Shown here in pieces: positions 16,800-27,211 of a DNA stretch of 32,826 bases. Position numbers and translations under genes: made by a program. Numbering within the stretch: the stretch's first letter is position 1; each line of letters opens with the position of its first letter. Where the stretch lies: positions 1 through 32,826 of the forward strand of contig NZ_JAANOY010000021.1 of the NCBI RefSeq assembly GCF_011320095.1. Direction: 5' to 3'. The DNA comes from Cognatiluteimonas telluris. GTDB lineage: Bacteria; Pseudomonadota; Gammaproteobacteria; Xanthomonadales; Xanthomonadaceae. The notes under the pieces are model-generated. The model had not been told where the DNA came from and ran no database searches. It worked only from the letters and a program-made list of their open reading frames with translations.

Positions 16800-17537
16800 C
16801 TAGGCGCTCTCCCTGCGGCACAGCCACAACGCCGACACCAGGTACAGCGTCGCACCCAGGCCCATCGCCAGCAGCAGGGCGTGCTGTTGCAGCTCGGCCA
16901 TGCCGCCCCGCACCGCCATCAGGGTATAGCTCCACGGGTAGAACACCCAGTACTGCGAACTGCCAATCTGCACGATTCCCATGGTTGCGATCATGCCCAT
17001 GGCCAGCGGGGGCACGACGCTGGGGAAGCGCCAGCTGATGGCATGCTGGATAACGAGCACCGGCAGGCATGCGAGCGGGATCTTCAGCATCGCGAAGGCG
17101 GCGCCGCCGGCAAATGCCTCCACCGTGGGGTAGCCGGCAATGCCGAGGATCGCGATCGCGAGGGCGACCAGCGCCGCCAGCAGCAGGCTTGCCGCGCCAA
17201 CCAGCAGCCACGCGGTCAGGAACTTGGCCAGGTACAGCTGCCCGCGCTGGATTGGCAACGTCAACATCAGCCGCCAGGCTTGGTTCCTGTGTTCGGCGCC
17301 GTTGACCAGGCAGGTGATCAGGGCGATGTACAGCGGGAGCATGAAATAACTCCACACTGCGGTGACGGCGCCCCAGAGCATCGTCCACGTCGCAGGCTTG
17401 AACGCCGATGGCCCTGTCTGCTTCAGCGTCACGCCGAACACCAGCAACACGACCATCAACGGACAGGCAAGCGTGACCAGCAATGCCAGCGAGCGGCGCA
17501 ACTTGATCGCTTCCACCCGAAGCAAGGGCAGCATCAT
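16800..17537 (-). CDS. ABC-2 permease of lantibiotic self-immunity type (LanE/LanG-like)
   Basis: A 245-residue membrane protein with about six spans: residues 18-38, 53-75, 98-130, 135-165 and two near the C-terminus. It begins MMLPLLRVEAIKLRRSLALL, the pattern of lantibiotic-immunity and bacitracin-type permeases, where a short amphipathic start contains E-x-x-K-x-R. The segment GAEHRNQAWRLMLTLPIQR corresponds to the conserved loop after the second span. It overlaps the ATPase stop by four bases (ATGA) and is the last gene of the lanthipeptide operon. In Gram-positive producers such pumps remove the antibiotic from the membrane. Only one permease gene is present, so it would work as a homodimer. 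Confidence 0.82.
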   Translation of the reverse strand: MMLPLLRVEAIKLRRSLALLVTLACPLMVVLLVFGVTLKQTGPSAFKPATWTMLWGAVTAVWSYFMLPLYIALITCLVNGAEHRNQAWRLMLTLPIQRGQLYLAKFLTAWLLVGAASLLLAALVALAIAILGIAGYPTVEAFAGGAAFAMLKIPLACLPVLVIQHAISWRFPSVVPPLAMGMIATMGIVQIGSSQYWVFYPWSYTLMAVRGGMAELQQHALLLAMGLGATLYLVSALWLCRRESA

Positions 17538-18454
17538 CGCGCGCTCCTTGCGGTAGCCGCGGTACCCAGGAACCACTGTTCGAGGGATGGCGCGGCGTAG
17601 GCGGATTCGAAGAGGTCCAGTCCGGCCTGGACCAGGCTGGCATTGACCCGGCTGGCCTCGCCACGTGCGATGCCATCGACCAGCATCGTGTTCGGCCCTT
17701 GCCGTTGCACCCGGTAGCCTTGCTGCGCCAGCAGGGCGCTGCCCTTGTCCGCATCGCAGACGGTCAGCGAGAGCGCGCCGGCCAGCGAACGCGTCAGTTC
17801 ATGGATCGAGGTCTGCAATCGCACGCGGCCGTTTTCCAGCAGGGCCAGGTGGGTCGCGGTTTTTTGCACTTCATCCAGCTGATGGCTGGCGAAGAATATG
17901 CTGCAGCCGACCACTTCGGGCAGGCTGGCCAGCAGCCGCCGCACTTCCTGGATGCCTTCCGGATCCAGGCCGTTGGTAGGCTCATCGAGGATGAGCAGTT
18001 GTGGTTGCCCTAGCAGCGCGTGCGCCAGCGCCAAGCGCTGTTTCATCCCAAGAGAATAATGTTCGATGCGCAGCTTCCGCTCCGCGTGGAGGCCGACGAT
18101 CGCCAGCACCCGGTCGATCTGCGACCTGGGCAGGCGCTTGAGCGCGCAGCCGATCGCCAGGAACTCGTTGGCGTTGAGGTTGGGATAGGCGCTGGGTGCA
18201 TCGACGATGCAGCCGACCTGCGCCAGGATGTCCCGGCGCTGGCGACGGATGTCCTTCCCCAGCACGCAGACCCGACCGCGGTCGGCGCCCAGCAGCCCGA
18301 CGATCAGCCGGATGGTGGTGGACTTACCCTGTCCGTTATTGCCGAGGAAGGCGAAAATACTGCGCGCCGGGACCGACAGCCTCAGGTCCTCGAGCACGGG
18401 TCGCTGGCCGAAGGCCTTGTGCACGCCTTCCAGTTCGATGACGGTCTGTGCCAT
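17534..18454 (-). CDS. ABC transporter ATPase, LanF/BcrA-like
   Basis: A 306-residue nucleotide-binding protein. Walker A is GNNGQGKST, the signature is the divergent YSLGMKQRLALA, Walker B is LLILDEPTNGLD and the switch histidine is in FFASHQLDEVQ. The SLGMKQR signature is typical of the bacitracin (BcrA) and lantibiotic-immunity (LanF) group rather than of exporters of unmodified peptides. The C-terminal 90 residues are the usual accessory domain. The ATG at 18454 starts 14 bases after the second exporter gene, and the stop overlaps the permease start. Together with that permease it is the likely self-protection pump for the product of this operon. Confidence 0.87.
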   Translation of the reverse strand: MAQTVIELEGVHKAFGQRPVLEDLRLSVPARSIFAFLGNNGQGKSTTIRLIVGLLGADRGRVCVLGKDIRRQRRDILAQVGCIVDAPSAYPNLNANEFLAIGCALKRLPRSQIDRVLAIVGLHAERKLRIEHYSLGMKQRLALAHALLGQPQLLILDEPTNGLDPEGIQEVRRLLASLPEVVGCSIFFASHQLDEVQKTATHLALLENGRVRLQTSIHELTRSLAGALSLTVCDADKGSALLAQQGYRVQRQGPNTMLVDGIARGEASRVNASLVQAGLDLFESAYAAPSLEQWFLGTAATARSAR

Positions 18455-18468
18455 GGTCTTCCGTGAAG

Positions 18469-20475
18469 TTAGTAGGCGGGCAAGGTCTGGCGCAACGCGT
18501 TGTTCCGCCGTTGCACGGTATGGCTGGCCGAGATGATGGTGCGGTCCTGGCGTTGCAGCAACGTGCTGATGTGATCGGCTCCAACCTCGTCGATGTTCGC
18601 CAACGGCTCGTCCAGCAGCAACAGGTCGCGGTCCGAAGCCAAGGCGGCCGTGAGCGCCAGCAACTGGCGTTGCCCACCCGATAGCGTGGCGCCGCCGTGC
18701 GGCAGCGGGGTGTCGTAGTGCATGGCCAATGCGTCGACCACCACGTCCAGGCCGGTCAGCACCGCCGTTTCCAGCAGGCACTTGCGGGTGGCGCCACCGG
18801 AGAGGATGCGCAGGTTCTCCATGATCGTGCCGGCGAAGATCTGGGTGAACTGCGGCAGGTACAGCAGCCGTTGCCGGGCACGGTCGGGGGCGAGGCCGGC
18901 GATGTCGACGGTGCCGCGCTCCGGAACGTAAAGGCCCGCCAGCAAGCGCAGCACCGTGCTCTTGCCGCAGCCAGAGGGGCCCTGGAGGACCAGCTTGGTG
19001 CCGGCCGCCAGTTCCAGGTGGTAGTCCCGCAGCACGTACCGGCCGTCATTGCCATAACGGAACCAGACGTCAGTGAGGACGATCGGCCGCGACAGCCTTC
19101 GCGCCGGGCCTGGTGCCGCGCGCGGCAAGGGCGGCATTGAAAACAACTCGGCCGTCCGCGCCAACTGCGGCTGGAGCACCAGCAGCGCCAGCCCGGCGTC
19201 CACCATGCCCGACATCGCGCGCAGGAAGGCATCGCCCAGGAGCAGGAAGCCGAACAGCGGCCCCAGTCCGAGCTCGCCATGGAGCACGCTGTATCCCCCC
19301 CAGACAAGCATGGTCACCGAGAAGGCCTGGCGGGTGAAGTCCATCCCCACCTGCGGCAACAAGCCGATGCGCTGGCGGCGCAGGGTGAAATCCAGCTCGC
19401 GGCCAAAATACCGCAACCAGCGGGCGTGGCTGGCCCGCTCCGCCCCCGCCGCCTTGATGGTGCGTACACCGGCGATCAACTCGGTCAGGTAACCGCGCTG
19501 GCGCGCCTGCGCCTTGACCTCTTCGCGTTGCTGGCGCGCCTGCGCACGACCGGCCGCGAATGCCAGCAGTGCCATCAGCAGCGACGCCAGCAGCATCAGG
19601 ACGGTGGGTGCCCAGAGTTTCACTCCCATCGCGATCAGGTAGCCGATGACCAGGGTGCCGTCGACCAGGGTGCCGAGCGCGCGTTCGGCAAACAACGTCC
19701 GGGCAACGGAGATGCCGGAAAATGCCTGCAGGAATTCGCCCGTGGTGAACTGTTGCAGCTGCGCGAACCGCAAGCGCAGCACGTGGTCGAGAAAACCGCG
19801 CTTGACGGTGACCTCCAGCCGGGTCATCGCGAACAACACCACCCGGTCGCGAAACCAGGTGATGGCGCCGGTGAACACGGCGGCCATCACCACGCTTGCC
19901 GCCGCCAGCCGCAACAGCGAGGTCGCCCCATCCGGAAGCGCCCGCCCGAGGACGAGGCCCGACAGCTCCGGACTCACCAAGACGAGCAACTGCAGCGGAA
20001 TGGCGGCCAGCGCCACGCAGGCGAGCGGGCGGCGATGCTGCAGTGCCAGCCGCCAGGCTCGCCCCCACAGGGTGCAGTCGTCGGGCAGCCGCGGCAGCAA
20101 TTCGATCGCCATGCCGGAAAGGGATGCTGCAAGCGCGTCGCTACCGGCCTGCCACACCCCGCCCTGGCCTTCGAGGATGAACTGGCGGCGACCGCTGCGC
20201 GCGCGCAGGACCAGCCAGGCCTCATCGCCCGTCTGTACGAGCGCGGGCACGTCGAGGCTGTGCAGGCGGCCCGGATCGATCCGAACACAATGGGCCGGCA
20301 GGCCGTGGAATTCCAGCAGCGGCAGCATCGCCTCGGCGGCTGTCTCGCCACGCCATTGTTCCTGCAGTTCGACCAGCGACGTTTCCGCCGAGCCGGCGAG
20401 TGTCAGCAGGCGCCATGTCGCGACGTCGGCGGGCAATCCCTGCCATGAGGACCCCGCGTTCCGGGACTCAGGCAT
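18469..20475 (-). CDS. Second ABC exporter with degenerate peptidase-like N-terminus (NHLM-type)
   Basis: A 668-residue ABC half-exporter. Residues 1 to about 135 align in outline with a C39 peptidase-like fold (RLHSLDVPALVQTGDEAWLV to SLSGMAIEL), but no catalytic Cys or His is present. Residues about 150-430 hold six spans. The ATPase domain has Walker A GPSGCGKST, signature LSGGQRQLLALT, Walker B LLLLDEPLANID and switch histidine SASHTV. It overlaps the upstream exporter gene by eight bases. An adjacent pair, one exporter with peptidase and one without, plus an HlyD protein, is the arrangement of nitrile-hydratase-leader-microcin (NHLM) type secretion loci. It may form a heterodimer with its neighbour, which is inference. 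Confidence 0.86.
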   Translation of the reverse strand: MPESRNAGSSWQGLPADVATWRLLTLAGSAETSLVELQEQWRGETAAEAMLPLLEFHGLPAHCVRIDPGRLHSLDVPALVQTGDEAWLVLRARSGRRQFILEGQGGVWQAGSDALAASLSGMAIELLPRLPDDCTLWGRAWRLALQHRRPLACVALAAIPLQLLVLVSPELSGLVLGRALPDGATSLLRLAAASVVMAAVFTGAITWFRDRVVLFAMTRLEVTVKRGFLDHVLRLRFAQLQQFTTGEFLQAFSGISVARTLFAERALGTLVDGTLVIGYLIAMGVKLWAPTVLMLLASLLMALLAFAAGRAQARQQREEVKAQARQRGYLTELIAGVRTIKAAGAERASHARWLRYFGRELDFTLRRQRIGLLPQVGMDFTRQAFSVTMLVWGGYSVLHGELGLGPLFGFLLLGDAFLRAMSGMVDAGLALLVLQPQLARTAELFSMPPLPRAAPGPARRLSRPIVLTDVWFRYGNDGRYVLRDYHLELAAGTKLVLQGPSGCGKSTVLRLLAGLYVPERGTVDIAGLAPDRARQRLLYLPQFTQIFAGTIMENLRILSGGATRKCLLETAVLTGLDVVVDALAMHYDTPLPHGGATLSGGQRQLLALTAALASDRDLLLLDEPLANIDEVGADHISTLLQRQDRTIISASHTVQRRNNALRQTLPAY

Positions 20476-22657
20476 GGGCCGCCTCGTCTTCCAGTCCATG
20501 CACCAGGTCGCGGAACCGTCCTTCCTGGTCCGCGAGCGTGGCATAGGTCCCCTGCTGGACCAGTCGACCGGCGTCCAGGACCAGGATGCGGTCGGCGTCC
20601 TTCACCGTCTGCAATCGGTGGGCGATCACGATCCGGGTGCACCCCAGGCCGGCGAGGTTGGCGTGGATCCGCGCCTCGGTGGGCAGGTCGAGGGCGCTGG
20701 TGGCCTCGTCCAGCAGCAGCAGCGCCGGCTGATGGGCCAGCGCGCGCGCCAGGCTCAGGCGCTGGCGTTGTCCGCCGGACAGCAGGTTGCCATTCTCGCC
20801 GACACGGCTGGCATAACCCGCGGGCATGGCATCGATGACGTCGTCCACGCACGCCAGCCGCGCCGCATGCCGCAGCCGTTCCAGCGGCAGCCCGGGCGCG
20901 TTGAGGGCGAGGTTGGCGCGTACCGTGTCGTCGAACAGGAAGGTGTCCTGCAGTACGACCCCGATCTGGCCGCGCAACGCCGGCAGATGCAGGCGGCGCA
21001 GGTCGCGACCATCGAAACGGACACTCCCGTGGGTGGGCAGGTGCATGCCCAGCAACAGCCGGGCCAGGGTGGACTTCCCGGCGCCGGACCGGCCGACGAT
21101 CGCGATCTTCTCGCCCGGCTGGATCGCCAGCGAAATTCCGTGCAGCACCCACGGCGACTGGGCGTCGTAGCGGAAGCTGACCTCCTCCAGTTCGATCGCG
21201 CCGGCCAGTCGGCCCGGGTCTTCGTCGCCGGATTCCTCCACCGGTGTTTCCAGGACATCGTCCAGGCGCCGCAAGTGCGTGCCCAGCAGCTGCAGGTCCA
21301 TCGCCGCGGCGGTCAGCGATTCCAGCGGAGCCGTGAACAGTCCCTGCAGGGTCATGAAGGCGGCGAACACCCCCAGCGTCATTTCCCGGGCCAGCACCGC
21401 CTGCCCGCCGACCCACAACACCGACGCCATGACGCAGCCGCTGAGCACGCCGGTCAGCTGGGCGGCGTTGACCTCAAGGTAACGACGCTGCACGCGGCGA
21501 TTGGTGGCCTGCACCATCGCGCGATGCCAGCGATCCAGCACGCGGTGTTCGGCGCCCAGCGCCTTGGTGGACTCCAGCCCGCTCAATGCGTTGACCAGGG
21601 CACCTTCCTCATTGCCGCTACTGGCAAGTTCCCCCGCCATCAGGCGCCGACTGCGCTGTCGCAGCGCGAGCAGTTGGCCCACCCGCAACAACCCAAGCCC
21701 GATCACGATCAGGCCCAGCTTCCACTCGAATGCAAGCATCAGCAGCGCGTAGCCGAGCAAGGTCGACAGATCCAGCAGCGCGGAAACGGACTGGCTGCCG
21801 AACAATGCGCGCAGCACGGTATTGGCCTGCACCCGCTGCACCAGGTCGCCAGCTTCGCGTTGCAGGAAGAACCCCAGCGGCAGGTGCAGAAGGTGATCGA
21901 GGAAGCGGCCCATCAGGCTCAGGTCCATCGCGTTCTGCAGACCCTGCAGGACCCAGTTGCGCACCAGGCCGAGCGCGACCCGCGCCAGCACCGCCATTCC
22001 CATTCCGAAAGCGAGGCCCCAGAGCCACTGTTCCTGATGCGGGGCGATCGCGCGGTCGAGCAGGATTTCCACCGCCAAGGGAAACACCAGTCCCAGCAGC
22101 TGCAAGGCCAGTGAAGCCAGCACCAACTGGAGCAGATTGGGGACGTATCGCGACAACAGCGATCGGTAGCGGGCCAGGCTGGGCCGGCTGGCGGCACGCG
22201 GGCGGAATTGGGTCGACCGCTCGAAAGTCAGCGCGACACCGGTGAAGTGGCGGCCGACGTCGTCCAGCCCGATCGTGTGGCGGCCGGACCGGGGATCGAC
22301 GATCACCGCGCTGCGCGCGCCCAGGCGCTCCAGCACCACGAAATGATTGAAATCCCAATGCAGGATCGCCGGCAACGGCAACGTGGCCAGTCCGGCGACG
22401 TCCCGGATCTGGCGTCCTTCGCTGAGCATTCCCAAAGCGCGTGCCGCATGAACCAGGCCCAGCGCATTGGCGCCGTCGCGCGACACGCCGCAGGATCTGC
22501 GCAACTCGGCCAGCGGCACGTGGTGGCCGTGGCAGCCGAGCACCATGGCCAGGCAGGCCGCGCCGCATTCGGCCAGCTCCATCTGCGCGATGAATCCGAC
22601 CTTCCTGCGTGCGGCCCGGCCTGCACGCCGCTCCGCCTGCCTGGTCACCTGAACCAT
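20468..22657 (-). CDS. lanT: Peptidase-containing ABC exporter (LanT-like, C39)
   Basis: A 729-residue bifunctional transporter that would remove the leader after a double glycine and export the modified peptide. The N-terminal C39 peptidase has oxyanion Gln25 and catalytic Cys31 in AQMELAECGAACLAMVLG, His105 in HWDFNHFVVLE and Asp121 in VDPRSG. Six membrane spans lie between about 160 and 440. The ATPase domain has Walker A GRSGAGKST, signature LLSGGQRQRLSLA, Walker B LLLLDEATSALD and His in IVIAHRLQT. The gene overlaps the HlyD stop by 13 bases. Peptidase and ATPase residues are all intact. The matching cleavage site is IQGG in the precursor at the start of the operon. Confidence 0.93.
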   Translation of the reverse strand: MVQVTRQAERRAGRAARRKVGFIAQMELAECGAACLAMVLGCHGHHVPLAELRRSCGVSRDGANALGLVHAARALGMLSEGRQIRDVAGLATLPLPAILHWDFNHFVVLERLGARSAVIVDPRSGRHTIGLDDVGRHFTGVALTFERSTQFRPRAASRPSLARYRSLLSRYVPNLLQLVLASLALQLLGLVFPLAVEILLDRAIAPHQEQWLWGLAFGMGMAVLARVALGLVRNWVLQGLQNAMDLSLMGRFLDHLLHLPLGFFLQREAGDLVQRVQANTVLRALFGSQSVSALLDLSTLLGYALLMLAFEWKLGLIVIGLGLLRVGQLLALRQRSRRLMAGELASSGNEEGALVNALSGLESTKALGAEHRVLDRWHRAMVQATNRRVQRRYLEVNAAQLTGVLSGCVMASVLWVGGQAVLAREMTLGVFAAFMTLQGLFTAPLESLTAAAMDLQLLGTHLRRLDDVLETPVEESGDEDPGRLAGAIELEEVSFRYDAQSPWVLHGISLAIQPGEKIAIVGRSGAGKSTLARLLLGMHLPTHGSVRFDGRDLRRLHLPALRGQIGVVLQDTFLFDDTVRANLALNAPGLPLERLRHAARLACVDDVIDAMPAGYASRVGENGNLLSGGQRQRLSLARALAHQPALLLLDEATSALDLPTEARIHANLAGLGCTRIVIAHRLQTVKDADRILVLDAGRLVQQGTYATLADQEGRFRDLVHGLEDEAAHA

Positions 22658-23871
22658 CGCGCCAAGGGCTTCAACAGCATCGTGATCGGGCGCTGGTGGC
22701 GCAGCATGAAGCGGACCTGCATCAGCATGCCGCTGCGCAGCCGCACGCCAGAGTTGGTGGCGGCCGAAGCGTCGGTGAGTTCCAGTTCGACCCGATAGGC
22801 GGGCTCCCCGAGGCTGCCGTTCTCTCCCAGCGCGTCGCGGACTTCATACGGCGCCGCCAGGTCGTTGCTGATCTTCGCGACGCGTGCCCCGAGTGAACCG
22901 AATTCGCCATAGGGAAGCTGCTGCAGTTCCAGCCGCACCGGATCGCCGACCTTCACGAATGCGCGATCCTTCTCCGGCAGGAATGACACCACGCGCAACG
23001 GCGTGCCCTTGGGAATGAGCTTGCCGAGCACGCTGCCGGCGGCCACCACATCGCCCGGGCGGACCAGCACGGCGTCGACCGTGCCGGCCTCCGGCGCACG
23101 CACGACCGCCTGCCTGAGGTCGAACTCCAAGGCTTGCCGGTTCGACAGCGCGGTCTTGAGCGCCTGCCGTTGCTGCCACAGGTCGGACTCCTGGCGGCTG
23201 TTGACGAGGGCCAGTTCCTGGCGCGCCTGCGCGATCCCCTGCTCGGTGCCGGCCAGTTCGCGCGCGGCTCCGGCATAGGCTTCGCGCGCATCGACAACAT
23301 TGAATTTGCTGACAACGCCGCTGTCGGCCAAGGACTCCAGTGCCCTCCACTTTCTTTCGTAGGCGGCAAGCGACGTGCGCTGGCTGGCGATCTGGCCCTG
23401 CATGCCCTCGATGCGCGCGTTGATGCTGGCGACCTGCTGTTCGTACAGCGCACGCTGGCGGCGCGCGACCTCGCCGAAATCCGATTTCAACAGCGTCACC
23501 TCGCGCTCGGACTGCATCAGTTGGCCGTGGACAGCGGGCATGTCGAGCCGGAGGACGGTGTCGCCGGCGCGCACCTGCCGTCCCGATGGGGCCTGCACCG
23601 ATTGCACCGTGCCAGCCACCTGGCTGACGAGCAGGCGCACGCCGTCGCCAGGACGCAGGATGCCCACGGCGCGCGCGTTGACCTCGACCGAACCGACCAC
23701 CGAGAGGATCAACGCAATGGCCAGCGCGGCAACCACCAGCCACAACAGCCACCAGGTCCATGGCGGGGATACGAGCAGGCGCTCGCGCGCCTCGACCGCG
23801 TCGCGCTGGTGTTGGTCACGCGCCTGCGGACGGAACAGGTCTTCGGGCCGCGGATATTCGGGAATCGTCAT
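22645..23871 (-). CDS. HlyD-type periplasmic adaptor of lanthipeptide exporter
   Basis: A 408-residue membrane-fusion protein. A cytoplasmic N-terminus (MTIPEYPRPEDLFRPQ) leads to one membrane span at about 39-60, a lipoyl half-motif (GTVQSVQAPSGRQVRAGDTV), a long alpha-helical hairpin (about 120-240) with heptad-like Leu/Ala/Gln/Arg pattern, the second lipoyl half (VVRAPEAGTVDAVLVRPGD) and a beta-barrel. It would bridge the ABC exporters to an outer-membrane TolC-like channel, which is not encoded here. An in-frame GTG at 23889 overlaps the lanM stop as GTGA and is an equally plausible coupled start that adds six residues. The presence of HlyD fits a Gram-negative producer. Confidence 0.9.
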   Translation of the reverse strand: MTIPEYPRPEDLFRPQARDQHQRDAVEARERLLVSPPWTWWLLWLVVAALAIALILSVVGSVEVNARAVGILRPGDGVRLLVSQVAGTVQSVQAPSGRQVRAGDTVLRLDMPAVHGQLMQSEREVTLLKSDFGEVARRQRALYEQQVASINARIEGMQGQIASQRTSLAAYERKWRALESLADSGVVSKFNVVDAREAYAGAARELAGTEQGIAQARQELALVNSRQESDLWQQRQALKTALSNRQALEFDLRQAVVRAPEAGTVDAVLVRPGDVVAAGSVLGKLIPKGTPLRVVSFLPEKDRAFVKVGDPVRLELQQLPYGEFGSLGARVAKISNDLAAPYEVRDALGENGSLGEPAYRVELELTDASAATNSGVRLRSGMLMQVRFMLRHQRPITMLLKPLARWFR

Positions 23872-23885
23872 CGGGTCTGGGCTGT

Positions 23886-26738
23886 TCACGCTTGCAGTGC
23901 ATGTCGCCGAAGGCTGTCGACCTTGCCCGACAGCCGGCTGACGCCGCACAGTACCGAGGGAACCTCGCCTGGCCGCGCCATGCGCAAGCACTGGTAAGCG
24001 ATTCCGGTGAGCCCGGGCATCAATCCCATCGGATGGGAAACCACGGCATTGAGCCGCAGGTCGCCCTGCGCGAGGCGCGCGAGGAGGCGCTCCGCGCGGT
24101 CGACGATGACCGGAAGCAGCTGGTCGCCCCCCTCGCATTCGGCGTGGCACAGAAGCAGTTCGAGGCTGCCGAACGCGCCCGACAGCAGCGAGTGGCCACC
24201 ATCCAGGCCATGGGCCACGGTGGTCTGCACGGCGATGTCGAGGTCTTCGCGTATCCGCGCCGTGTCGATGCCCGCGCGCAGCAGGCCCAGCCGCGCCAGT
24301 CCGATGCCAGGTGCGCCGTGGGCCCAGGACACTGCGGCGACCGGTTTGTCCCCGTGCTCGTTGACGACGTATTCGCGGCAGTCGCGCCAGTTGCCGGTTT
24401 CGGGCATGAACAGCGTATGTTCGTATTCCAGCGCGCGCAGGCTTGCCTGGCGATAATGTTCCTCGCCGGTGGCCTCGAACAGGCGCCCGAATGCGAGAGC
24501 GAATCCCGACGCCCCGTGTGCCAGGCCCGAGAGCGGCTGCGAACTGGTGATCCGCCAGCCATAGCCAGGGATGCCTTCGTGCCGGTGTTCCAGCAGGTGC
24601 TCAGCGCTGGCACGCGCCAATGCCAGCGCGCGTGGCGAAGCACCCGCGGCGTGCAGCTCCGTGCATGCAATGATGAAACCCGCGCTGCCGGCGATGACGC
24701 CGTAGTTGCCATCGGCGTGCACCAACTGGTCGAACTGCGGATCCTCTAGCAACGCACGCGCCTGGTGGAGGTAGCCGAATTCACACGCCTGCTGTGCCAG
24801 CCTGGCAAGCATGAAAATGATGCTGCCCCAGCCGGCGTACAGGCCCAGGGAGCGGATTGCCGAGCCGGACTCGCGCAGTCGTCGCATCAGGTAGTGCAGC
24901 GCGCGATTCGACAGGTCGCGGTATTCGATGTTTCCGGTGACGCGTGCCAGCTGCTGGAAGAACAGGATCTCGCCCGGCATGCCGCTGTGCAGGTCGTGGA
25001 AGGCAGGCACCAGTTCGAACGCGCTGTTGTCCAGCGCCTTCGACTTGTGCACCAGCCAACTCGCATTCGCGCCGTCGACATGCATCTGGTCGCGAATCTT
25101 CTCTCCGATCGATGTCGCAACTTCGACCAGGCGTTCGCGAAGGGGCGCCGCCCCGCCCTCGGTGGCAGCGCGAAGGCCGGGTCCGCGCGCCGGTCGTGGG
25201 CGCGGGTCGTGCATGCGGATGGCATTGGCGATCATCCAGCATTGCTGGTTGAGGTCATCGGTGCACAGGCCGTCGATTTTCCTCAGCACCGCCTGCAGGC
25301 CACTTTCCTCGAAGAACCCATGGATGCATCCATCATCGGCGTACCAGAGATCGCGGCTGTCGACGCGCGTGCTGAACTGGGGAACATCGCCGCGCTGGAG
25401 ATCGGCGATCTCAAAATCGACGAAGCGCGCTGCGGTCGGGTAGGTCGCGACGACCGCGCGCAAACGGGCAAAATGGGCCGCACTGGCGTCCGCGCACAGC
25501 ATCAGGCTGGGGTGCCTGGATTCATTTAGCAGGTGCACGTACGTCGCGGTGTGGCGGAAGATCACCCGGATTTCTGCCTGGGCGCAGGCGTTGACCAGTC
25601 CGCGGAATGCGTCGCGTCGCTGCAGGATCGCGCGATACACCAGCGCAAATCCCTCCTGCAGGTTGGCGATGTGGCCTGGACCCACTTGGATCGGCGTGTC
25701 GCCCAGCCGCGGGATGTTTTGTCCCCCCGACAGCGCGAGGCGTTCGCGGGTGAAACCAAGCCCCCCTGAATGGTCCTGGACCAGGAGCATGCGCTCCAGC
25801 CCGGGCTCGCCGGCGGCGTCGACAATGCCGCCGACTTCGGGAAAGCCGTCGCAGCCGGCAAGGAAACGCGTGGGGAGGATGCCGACTTTCAGCACCGATG
25901 CGTCGTAGCGCTCGTTGGCTTCGCCGCCTGCGGTGCGCGTCACCGGGCGGAAGAAGCTCTCCAGATCGACCAGGACCGGCTGCTCCGCGCAGGCGATGAT
26001 GTTCTCGTAGTGGAAGTCGGTGGCCTCAAGGACATACAACAAGGCCATCAGGCCACCCAGGCGCCGGTAATAGCGGCCGCTTGCCGCCTGGCCGGCAAGG
26101 CTGTCATGGCCGATGAACTCGACCCAACCATAGGCTCCGCGATCGATGTGGCGCGCGGAAGTTAATCCAAGGCCGCAGTGCGGATTGAGCCAGTCCAGCA
26201 GGAGCCCGAAATGAGAGTCGATCGCCAGGCTTCTTGGCTTGTAGACCAGGCGACGGCCGTCCGCGAACTCGAGCAACGCCACGCTCCGCCCGCCGCGATG
26301 CGTATCGCCGACGCCAGTGCGAACCCTGGCGACGACCAGTGGAGCGTCTCCCGGAAGCAGCTGCCTGCGAATTTCCGCTTCGTCGCAACGCCAGCGCTCG
26401 GCCAGCAGGGACGATTGCTCGAGCCAGGACGCGCACGCGGCATCCATGGCGCCGCGCAGCACCGGATATCGCCCATGGATGTATTCGCGCACCGCCGCCT
26501 GCTCCAGCAGGGAGCAAAAGGCGTCGAACGAAACGTCCGCTTCCACCAGCTTGTACTGGGTCACCAGCACTCGGTGCGTCAGTTCGAACAAGGTGCCGTA
26601 GAGGTCGCCCACCAGGTCCCTGGCAAAGGCTTCCCGCGTCGGTTGCGCACCGACGCCCGGGCCCAGGCGCCCTTCCAGCGCTTGCCTGCATTCTTCGGCG
26701 CGGTCCCGGAAGAACGCCGAAAGATTCCTTAGATCCAT
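23886..26738 (-). CDS. lanM: Class II lanthipeptide synthetase LanM lacking cyclase zinc ligands
   Basis: A 950-residue bifunctional enzyme that would phosphorylate and dehydrate Ser/Thr in the precursor and then form thioether rings. Dehydratase half (about 60-560): kinase-like Lys167 (LVYKPRSL), Asp241/His243/Asn246 (ATDFHYENI), Asp258 (VLVDLES), activation-loop Lys284 (LKVGILP) and the elimination motif FRHTATY at 394-400; all appear intact. Cyclase half (about 600-930) aligns clearly: GLAHGASG (738-745), WAHGAPGIGLARL (805 on), HSLLSGAFGSLELLL (849 on), GLMPGLTGIAY. The usual zinc ligands are Cys in WCHG and Cys-His in CHG; here they are Ala806, Leu852 and Ser853. A Cys-His pair (864-865) sits 12 residues downstream. 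No strong ribosome-binding site precedes the ATG at 26738. Confidence 0.93.
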   Translation of the reverse strand: MDLRNLSAFFRDRAEECRQALEGRLGPGVGAQPTREAFARDLVGDLYGTLFELTHRVLVTQYKLVEADVSFDAFCSLLEQAAVREYIHGRYPVLRGAMDAACASWLEQSSLLAERWRCDEAEIRRQLLPGDAPLVVARVRTGVGDTHRGGRSVALLEFADGRRLVYKPRSLAIDSHFGLLLDWLNPHCGLGLTSARHIDRGAYGWVEFIGHDSLAGQAASGRYYRRLGGLMALLYVLEATDFHYENIIACAEQPVLVDLESFFRPVTRTAGGEANERYDASVLKVGILPTRFLAGCDGFPEVGGIVDAAGEPGLERMLLVQDHSGGLGFTRERLALSGGQNIPRLGDTPIQVGPGHIANLQEGFALVYRAILQRRDAFRGLVNACAQAEIRVIFRHTATYVHLLNESRHPSLMLCADASAAHFARLRAVVATYPTAARFVDFEIADLQRGDVPQFSTRVDSRDLWYADDGCIHGFFEESGLQAVLRKIDGLCTDDLNQQCWMIANAIRMHDPRPRPARGPGLRAATEGGAAPLRERLVEVATSIGEKIRDQMHVDGANASWLVHKSKALDNSAFELVPAFHDLHSGMPGEILFFQQLARVTGNIEYRDLSNRALHYLMRRLRESGSAIRSLGLYAGWGSIIFMLARLAQQACEFGYLHQARALLEDPQFDQLVHADGNYGVIAGSAGFIIACTELHAAGASPRALALARASAEHLLEHRHEGIPGYGWRITSSQPLSGLAHGASGFALAFGRLFEATGEEHYRQASLRALEYEHTLFMPETGNWRDCREYVVNEHGDKPVAAVSWAHGAPGIGLARLGLLRAGIDTARIREDLDIAVQTTVAHGLDGGHSLLSGAFGSLELLLCHAECEGGDQLLPVIVDRAERLLARLAQGDLRLNAVVSHPMGLMPGLTGIAYQCLRMARPGEVPSVLCGVSRLSGKVDSLRRHALQA

Positions 26739-26954
26739 TGCGATCGCATTTGGGTTGTGGGTGCCAGGGCACGACTGGCCGTCCGCATGCATCGCGGCGT
26801 CGCATGCCAGGTCACCGCTGCATGTTTGATCGCCGTGTCGCGCGTCGTCGGGGAGGATTCAAGCGCTGGTTCGCATCCAGGCCGCGCCCGCTCCAGTGGC
26901 CGTTACGCGTCGGTTCGAGTCGGTGGTCCGGACTCGCCGTCCAACGGTTTTCCG
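26739..26954 (-). other. Leader region between attenuator hairpin and lanM
   Basis: 216 bases with no convincing gene on either strand. Short open frames on the minus strand lack a double-glycine leader and cysteine pattern, so I see no second precursor. No good promoter was recognised. The region probably belongs to the read-through transcript from lanA. Confidence 0.4.
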
Positions 26955-26992: not shown

Positions 26993-27211
26993 TCAGGCCG
27001 ATTGCATCTGCGACCACCAGTAGCTCCAGTTGTCGCAACGCGTACCGCCGTTGCACTCGGCGCTGATGGTGGGGAAGTAACCCGAACCGATCCCGCCCTG
27101 GATCTGCTGCAACAGATTCTCGTCGATGGCCGGACCGCCCGCGACACGTTGGACCGCGCCGGCATCCTGCTCGGCATTTCTCCACTTGGTGAGGACTTCC
27201 ATTGCATTCAT
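26993..27211 (-). CDS. lanA: Class II lanthipeptide precursor, lacticin 481/salivaricin A-like core
   Basis: A 72-residue precursor. The leader (1-40) is acidic and helical (MNAMEVLTKWRNAEQDAG) and ends NLLQQIQGG, with Leu34 and Ile37 at positions -7 and -4 before the double glycine, as C39 peptidases require. The predicted 32-residue core begins IGSGYFPTISAECNGGTRC and ends DNWSYWWSQMQSA. It contains Thr48, Ser50, Cys53 and Cys59 (precursor numbering) plus other Ser/Thr. The stretch GSG-x3-T-[IV]-[ST]-x2-C matches GSGVIHTISHEC of lacticin 481 and GSGWIATITDDC of salivaricin A. AAGGAG at 27225-27220, eight bases before the ATG, fixes the start. First gene of the operon; the product is predicted to be an exported thioether peptide. 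Confidence 0.92.
   Translation of the reverse strand: MNAMEVLTKWRNAEQDAGAVQRVAGGPAIDENLLQQIQGGIGSGYFPTISAECNGGTRCDNWSYWWSQMQSA

Follow-up and report, generated by a model that had tools for sequence, protein, structure and literature searches.

The window analysed here, the whole 32,826-nucleotide stretch of contig NZ_JAANOY010000021.1 from Cognatiluteimonas telluris, encodes a class II synthetase, LanM, whose LanC-type cyclase domain lacks all three zinc ligands, together with a precursor peptide, LanA. LanMs without an intact Cys/Cys/(His or Cys) triad are called ligand-less below, and those with one zinc-type; residue counts refer to 12 ligand-less and 97 zinc-type rows, with fragments, triad-gapped rows and duplicate loci removed. 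The features that bear on the loss are as follows.

23886..26738, minus strand: lanM, DUF4135 dehydratase plus LanC cyclase domain (TIGR03897, PF13575, PF05147; start inferred at MDLRNL)
24321..24323, minus strand: Ala824 (codon GCC), replacing zinc ligand 1 (NisC Cys284) in the alignments
24180..24185, minus strand: Leu870-Ser871 (CTG at 24183-24185, TCG at 24180-24182), replacing zinc ligands 2 and 3 (NisC Cys330-His331) in the alignments
24516..24518, minus strand: His759, on the enolate acid CylM His835 / LanCL1 His219 in the profile alignment (His in 12/12 ligand-less and 96/97 zinc-type LanMs)
24318..24320, minus strand: His825, on LanCL1 His277 / CylM Lys876 (enolate oxygen) in the profile alignment (12/12 ligand-less, 79/97 zinc-type)
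24699..24701, minus strand: Gly698, where zinc-type LanMs have Asp (91/97) in the alignment
26993..27211, minus strand: lanA, precursor with a GG leader (PF04604, 23.1 bits, cut-off 21.7; similar precursors lie beside all 12 ligand-less LanMs)
26996..27091, minus strand: predicted core after GG, IGSGYFPTISAECNGGTRCDNWSYWWSQMQSA

The lanM reading frame opens at 26792 (23886-26792, minus strand), and the likely start, Met19, was placed at 26738 because the Janthinobacterium homologue (L028) has a Met at the same MDL. Residues are numbered from 26792; the preliminary description of this DNA counted from the Met at 26738, so that its Ala806, Leu852 and Ser853 correspond to 824, 870 and 871 here. 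TIGR03897 matched the protein with 647 bits (cut-off 304) over model positions 24-932, DUF4135 and LanC spanning the whole model, and the cyclase domain is full-length. The nearest relative of known structure in both sequence and fold is LicM2 (6st5); the full-length structure model (pLDDT 72) served for fold matching only. The dehydratase motifs had been described as intact, and every residue on our list was found (D163, H165, K185, D259, H261, N264, D276, E278, R409, R413 and T415), which we take to be the catalytic ones. The LanKC model NF038151 gave 63 bits (cut-off 575), with its best stretch in the LanC part, and the kinase and lyase domains of class III were not found in the protein.

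In the alignment to the solved LicM2, W-A-H-G falls on W-C-H-G and H-S-L-L-S-G on H-S-L-C-H-G, and profile alignments concur. An alignment with known LanMs had been proposed as a check, and this one puts Ala, Leu and Ser on the zinc ligands, leaving the window LanM without the Cys/Cys/(His or Cys) set of zinc-dependent cyclases; the frame, coordinates and residues of the original claim were all borne out. So was the argument that no single sequencing error could account for changes of two or more bases each in an intact frame, the minimum from Cys, Cys and His codons to Ala824, Leu870 and Ser871 being 2, 3 and 3. Cys864-His865 (882-883 here), offered as a substitute ligand pair, fared otherwise and was rejected as private to the window protein: Cys882 lies in an insertion missing from 11/12 ligand-less and 94/97 zinc-type rows, and the position of His883 is His in 1/12. 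Among all cyclase columns scanned, none besides those of His759 and His825 holds Cys or His in at least 7/12 ligand-less members. With these two as the sole Cys/His positions shared so widely and Cys882-His883 private, it is improbable that the cyclase domain binds a metal through other residues and is still metal-dependent, even though the conserved His759, His825 and Asp600 exist as potential ligands.

The triad loss is a trait of a conserved LanM subfamily in two phyla, not an individual defect. Of 112 aligned rows, 96 carry CCH or CCC, 5 have a gap at the triad, and the remaining 11, among them the window LanM, have no complete triad; a twelfth ligand-less member, L144, from a genome in the same order as that of L050, joined after this alignment. 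All three ligands are replaced in 10 of the 12, while L032 and L144 keep the second-position Cys. The triads read ALS (window), AIF (Janthinobacterium), ATF, SSA (twice) and ASF (Flavobacteriia, Kordia), SCF (twice) and ANV (other Bacteroidota) and SIF (three times; Chryseobacterium, Epilithonimonas). Canonical ligands in all close homologues had been named as the sign of an individual defect; the opposite was found, none of the seven top-scoring relatives having an intact triad. Gene decay or a sequencing artefact is hardly credible as an explanation: the window protein did lose all three ligands at once, but the frame is intact with 2-3 base changes per ligand, a full gene set adjoins lanM, the loss is common to homologues across two phyla, which already contradict this explanation, and the relatives are under constraint. 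An individual defect or pseudogene was rejected on the relatives and the constraint.

The ligand-less subfamily is rare in the sampled genomes. Among 199 genomes near that of the window, 15 (its own included) have a LanM match, the other readable triads being CCH or CCC and one partial match (L016) being gapped; no LanM match was found in eight genomes of the same genus. Full-length ligand-less members occur in 1/349 Kordia-family genomes, 3/296 of the Chryseobacterium family, 2/295 of L050's order, 1/40 Janthinobacterium, 1/345 of G203's phylum and 1/349 of the window's phylum. These counts include genomes already known, that of L144 being the only new one, and since the family-wide searches scored the best two first-look candidates in most genomes, members could be missed. 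Viral contigs yielded one relative (L180), with canonical CCH, and plasmids 33 records matching at E up to 1e-30 (triads not read), none at or over 60% identity. In the open-access literature searched, supplements excluded, we recognised no study that treats the ligand-less subfamily; a 2024 survey lists 47 predicted peptides nearest DUF4135 with an undefined triad, 'D-Unk' (PMC11251773).

With the ligand columns removed, the cyclase-domain tree places the 12 ligand-less LanMs in one clade (SH-aLRT 98), as does the two-domain tree (SH-aLRT 99). The dehydratase-only tree has a nine-member clade (100/100), with the Weeksellaceae trio placed elsewhere, and an approximately unbiased (AU) test on this domain did not reject a single clade of 12 (p 0.341). 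All trees used thinned sets without long-branch rows (101, 74 or 70 rows, the last for the LanMbC comparison below). Because the cyclase and two-domain trees unite the 12 and the dehydratase trees do not, the triad was lost once or twice, the dehydratase domain alone favouring two origins.

What the cyclase site kept can be read against LanC chemistry, in which zinc activates the thiol, one His protonates the enolate and a second residue stabilises its oxygen (PMC9934072). The two residues of the enolate half, His759 and His825, are present in 12/12 ligand-less members. Residue 870 varies among the members (I, S, C, L, T or N), and Phe occupies 871 in 8/12, the window having Ser there. A known site without metal is that of ThurKC, a class III LanKC whose LanC domain works without zinc. 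Ser stands there both at ligand 1 and in place of Asp141, ligands 2-3 are Phe770-Asp771, and His212 is replaced by Asp (PMC10604976). Like ThurKC, the ligand-less LanMs have dropped the metal site, with Ala or Ser at ligand 1 and Gly or Ser at residue 698, which from order and motif, rather than direct alignment to NisC, is probably the NisC Asp141 position. Unlike ThurKC, where LanKC has kinase and lyase domains, the window LanM has DUF4135. The subfamily thus resembles class III in the dropped metal site and differs in the kept His acid, since His759 is retained where ThurKC has Asp for His212. Canonical class II LanMs (LicM2 6st5, LctM, HalM2) share with the ligand-less ones the domain order, dehydratase residues, LanC fold, GG-leader precursor and C39 transporter, but the ligand-less proteins lack an intact Cys/Cys/His triad and the Asp at 698. 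The clostridial LanM-like proteins of the CA_C0082 type likewise have no zinc motif; they differ in being shorter (670-728 aa) and in lacking the dehydratase catalytic residues (PMC10301443).

At 12/12 ligand-less loci a small GG-leader peptide carries [T/S]-h-S-[G/A]-[E/D]-C and, 5-7 residues on, another Cys. The motif [T/S]-h-S-x-[E/D]-C occurred in 2/59 zinc-type loci (some with short flanks), hits were seen in 3/240 shuffled loci, and a relaxed form, [T/S]-h-[S/T]-x-[E/D]-C, occurred in 11/59 zinc-type loci. In 16 precursors the places of two Ser/Thr and of two Cys hardly vary, which fits two rings; an acidic residue directly precedes Cys1 in 16/16 cores, and 7/16 carry an extra Cys ahead of the motif. 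One of them (L051:4949-5200) repeats its core twice in tandem behind one leader. The window LanA has the GG leader and T-x-S-x-E-C core of the lacticin 481 type, with 17.3 bits against NF040664 (cut-off 46), and 7/9 ligand-less precursors scanned gave weak matches to NF040664 or NF000539 below the NCBIfam cut-offs. Lacticin 481 and plantaricin C precursors share a T-x-S-x-E-C-like core after a GG leader with the ligand-less precursors, which differ in conserving only two Cys and two Ser/Thr. A canonical CCH LanM lies beside a nearly identical core in Chitinophaga (L040).

The main rival explanation, distinctly less probable in our estimate than cyclisation without metal, is that the window LanM only dehydrates and that its LanC domain is a scaffold or substrate-binding part, the Cys ringing spontaneously, remaining free or forming a disulfide. 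A 2007 study of lacticin 481 synthetase, going by its title, reportedly found that zinc-ligand mutants keep dehydration while cyclisation is impaired, which we count for this rival. CcaM (LanMbC, 2023; carnazolamide, dehydrazoles) also counts for it: this zinc-independent DUF4135-LanC fusion dehydrates Ser before azoles after YcaO action and cannot do so without its zinc-less cyclase domain, though its product contains no lanthionine (PMC10676384). The preliminary description, which knew of no class II synthetase of this sort that had been characterised, is corrected on that point by CcaM. In both CcaM and the window LanM, a DUF4135 dehydratase is fused with a LanC-fold domain from which the zinc ligands are missing. 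Unlike the ligand-less subfamily, which has the LanC motifs, LanMbC works with YcaO and without the LanC H-G motifs. Six Chryseobacterium-family proteins of ~1025 aa are, judging by size, taxon and a YcaO match ~3.6 kb away in 6/6 genomes, probably CcaM relatives. After residue 650, G-x-x-H-G or W-x-[H/N/Y]-G occurs in 0/6 of them (two other H-G pairs occur); the LanC profile gives 54-63 bits and, in the three proteins whose alignments were inspected, is matched only up to about position 170 of 404, and the two scanned match TIGR03897 only to 708 of 932. The cyclisation-specific His759 and His825, in contrast, are present in 12/12 ligand-less members. Nor is Cys consumed by azole formation in the window's own genome, where no YcaO was found; 9/11 other subfamily genomes have none either (10/12 in total), and in 2/11 it lies on another contig. 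The near-fixed spacing of Ser/Thr and Cys in 16/16 cores also speaks against dehydration alone. In the dehydratase tree, LanMbC-type proteins and ligand-less LanMs fall in separate supported clades, a union with all 12 not being rejected (AU p 0.203). Membership of the window LanM in LanMbC was rejected on the missing YcaO and the LanC architecture.

A separate zinc cyclase could instead close the rings in trans, which we regard as very improbable. Further LANC_like matches occur in 8/11 other subfamily genomes, and in L059 (8800-13251) a class I LanB and a zinc-type LanC lie directly downstream of the ligand-less LanM. The window genome (99.95% complete), however, has one LANC_like match at Pfam sensitivity, this LanM, which excludes a LanC in trans there at that sensitivity; a lone match is also seen in 3/11 other genomes (G203, G204 and G1140; completeness not given).

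Taken together, the pattern suggests that the ligand-less LanMs are a small family that closes rings metal-free or does without rings. Of the three options first raised, that of the Cys-His pair falls, dehydration alone keeps the standing given above, and metal-free cyclisation is best supported, by pattern rather than assay. On balance, we judge it somewhat probable that the cyclase domain of the subfamily works without zinc and makes a two-ring lacticin-481-like peptide. The intact dehydratase would phosphorylate Thr/Ser of LanA and then eliminate; the cyclase domain would position the Cys thiol for attack on the dehydro residue, with no metal to activate it. The enolate oxygen would be held by His825, and His759 would deliver the proton to the alpha carbon. 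The product would be lacticin-481-like with two rings, one joining the first T/S to Cys1 and the other joining Ser to Cys2; the adjoining C39 transporter would cut it at GG and export it. Thiol activation by a general base (His825 or a carboxylate such as Asp600) or by simple proximity is a guess, and the acidic residue before Cys1 might, speculatively, assist deprotonation from the substrate. More tentatively, at slightly less than an even chance, the subfamily may represent a third, independently evolved lanthionine route, in which the zinc half was dropped, the two-His half kept and the core co-evolved across two phyla.

Several points weigh against metal-free cyclisation. The Asp at 698 is lost in all 12 ligand-less members, and ThurKC's base (Asp771) and orienting residue (Phe770) have no counterparts at the equivalent positions of the ligand-less proteins. 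The high confidence of the predicted cyclase structure is owed largely to the 39 zinc-type rows among its 50 input rows. The Fisher p for the core motif in ligand-less versus zinc-type loci (7e-12) overstates the case because the loci are related and 12/12 does not amount to 12 independent events. No tree in 200 dehydratase-only bootstrap replicates unites the 12. The ligand-less cyclase domain is under constraint (dN/dS of five ligand-less pairs; 0.39 for window/L028), but the estimate is poor for the 4/5 pairs, window/L028 included, whose cyclase dS is above 1, and constraint is no proof of cyclisation, because the zinc-less domain of CcaM is needed for dehydration without rings. Finally, K185 is kept in 11/12 members; in L032 (5937-8822) Ser replaces this Lys and Met replaces Arg187, possibly altering or impairing the dehydratase.

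Downstream of lanM lie the following genes; Pfam scans of neighbouring genes covered a chosen part of the loci.

22645..23871, minus strand: HlyD-type membrane fusion protein (PF13437, scanned as 22645-23886; ATG start inferred at MTIPEY)
20468..22657, minus strand: ABC transporter with C39 peptidase, predicted to cleave the GG leader and export (PF03412, PF00664, PF00005)
18469..20544, minus strand: second ABC transporter, probable cluster member (PF00664, PF00005)
17534..18454, minus strand: ABC ATPase like lantibiotic-protection subunits, possible immunity (TIGR03740, 208.9 bits, cut-off 309.75, longer frame; PF00005; start inferred)
16800..17576, minus strand: ABC-2 permease, possible partner of the ATPase (PF12730, 67.9 bits)

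The genes at 16800-20544 (second ABC transporter, protection-like ATPase and ABC-2 permease) are possible self-immunity genes. In the Flavobacteriia/Kordia loci a weakly DoxX-like membrane protein, below the Pfam cut-off, follows the ligand-less LanM (L029:8710-9330, L031:8671-9297, and after 8704 in L030 and L062; of these, L029 and L031 were scanned with Pfam), and a DoxX_2-like protein lies near that of L051 (10998-11504); these neighbours possibly confer immunity. L083:10080-12551 looks like a graspetide cluster: next to a weak MvdD-like ATP-grasp match, it encodes four GG-leader peptides that contain no Cys and repeat the motif SLFSD.

Four LANC-like proteins of ~640 aa from the Chryseobacterium family (L141, L142, L143 and L113) have the triad Ala/Phe/Ser (W-A-H-G ... 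L-F-S-G), apparently a separate zinc-ligand loss outside LanM. The triad of L123 is Ala/Cys/Ser. Eight DUF4135-like proteins of ~490-520 aa from Flavobacteriia (L110, L111, L120, L130, L131, L133, L135 and L137) have no cyclase part in frame.

The subfamily bears on how thioether rings are closed by LanC-fold enzymes that do not use zinc. A zinc-independent DUF4135-LanC fusion is already known in CcaM, and the ligand-less LanMs, with their retained LanC motifs, would be a further variant. In ThurKC both halves of the active site are altered, whereas the ligand-less LanMs appear to have changed mainly the thiol-activating half. The Chitinophaga locus provides a natural control, and since it pairs a zinc-type LanM with a nearly identical core, what zinc is needed for becomes testable.

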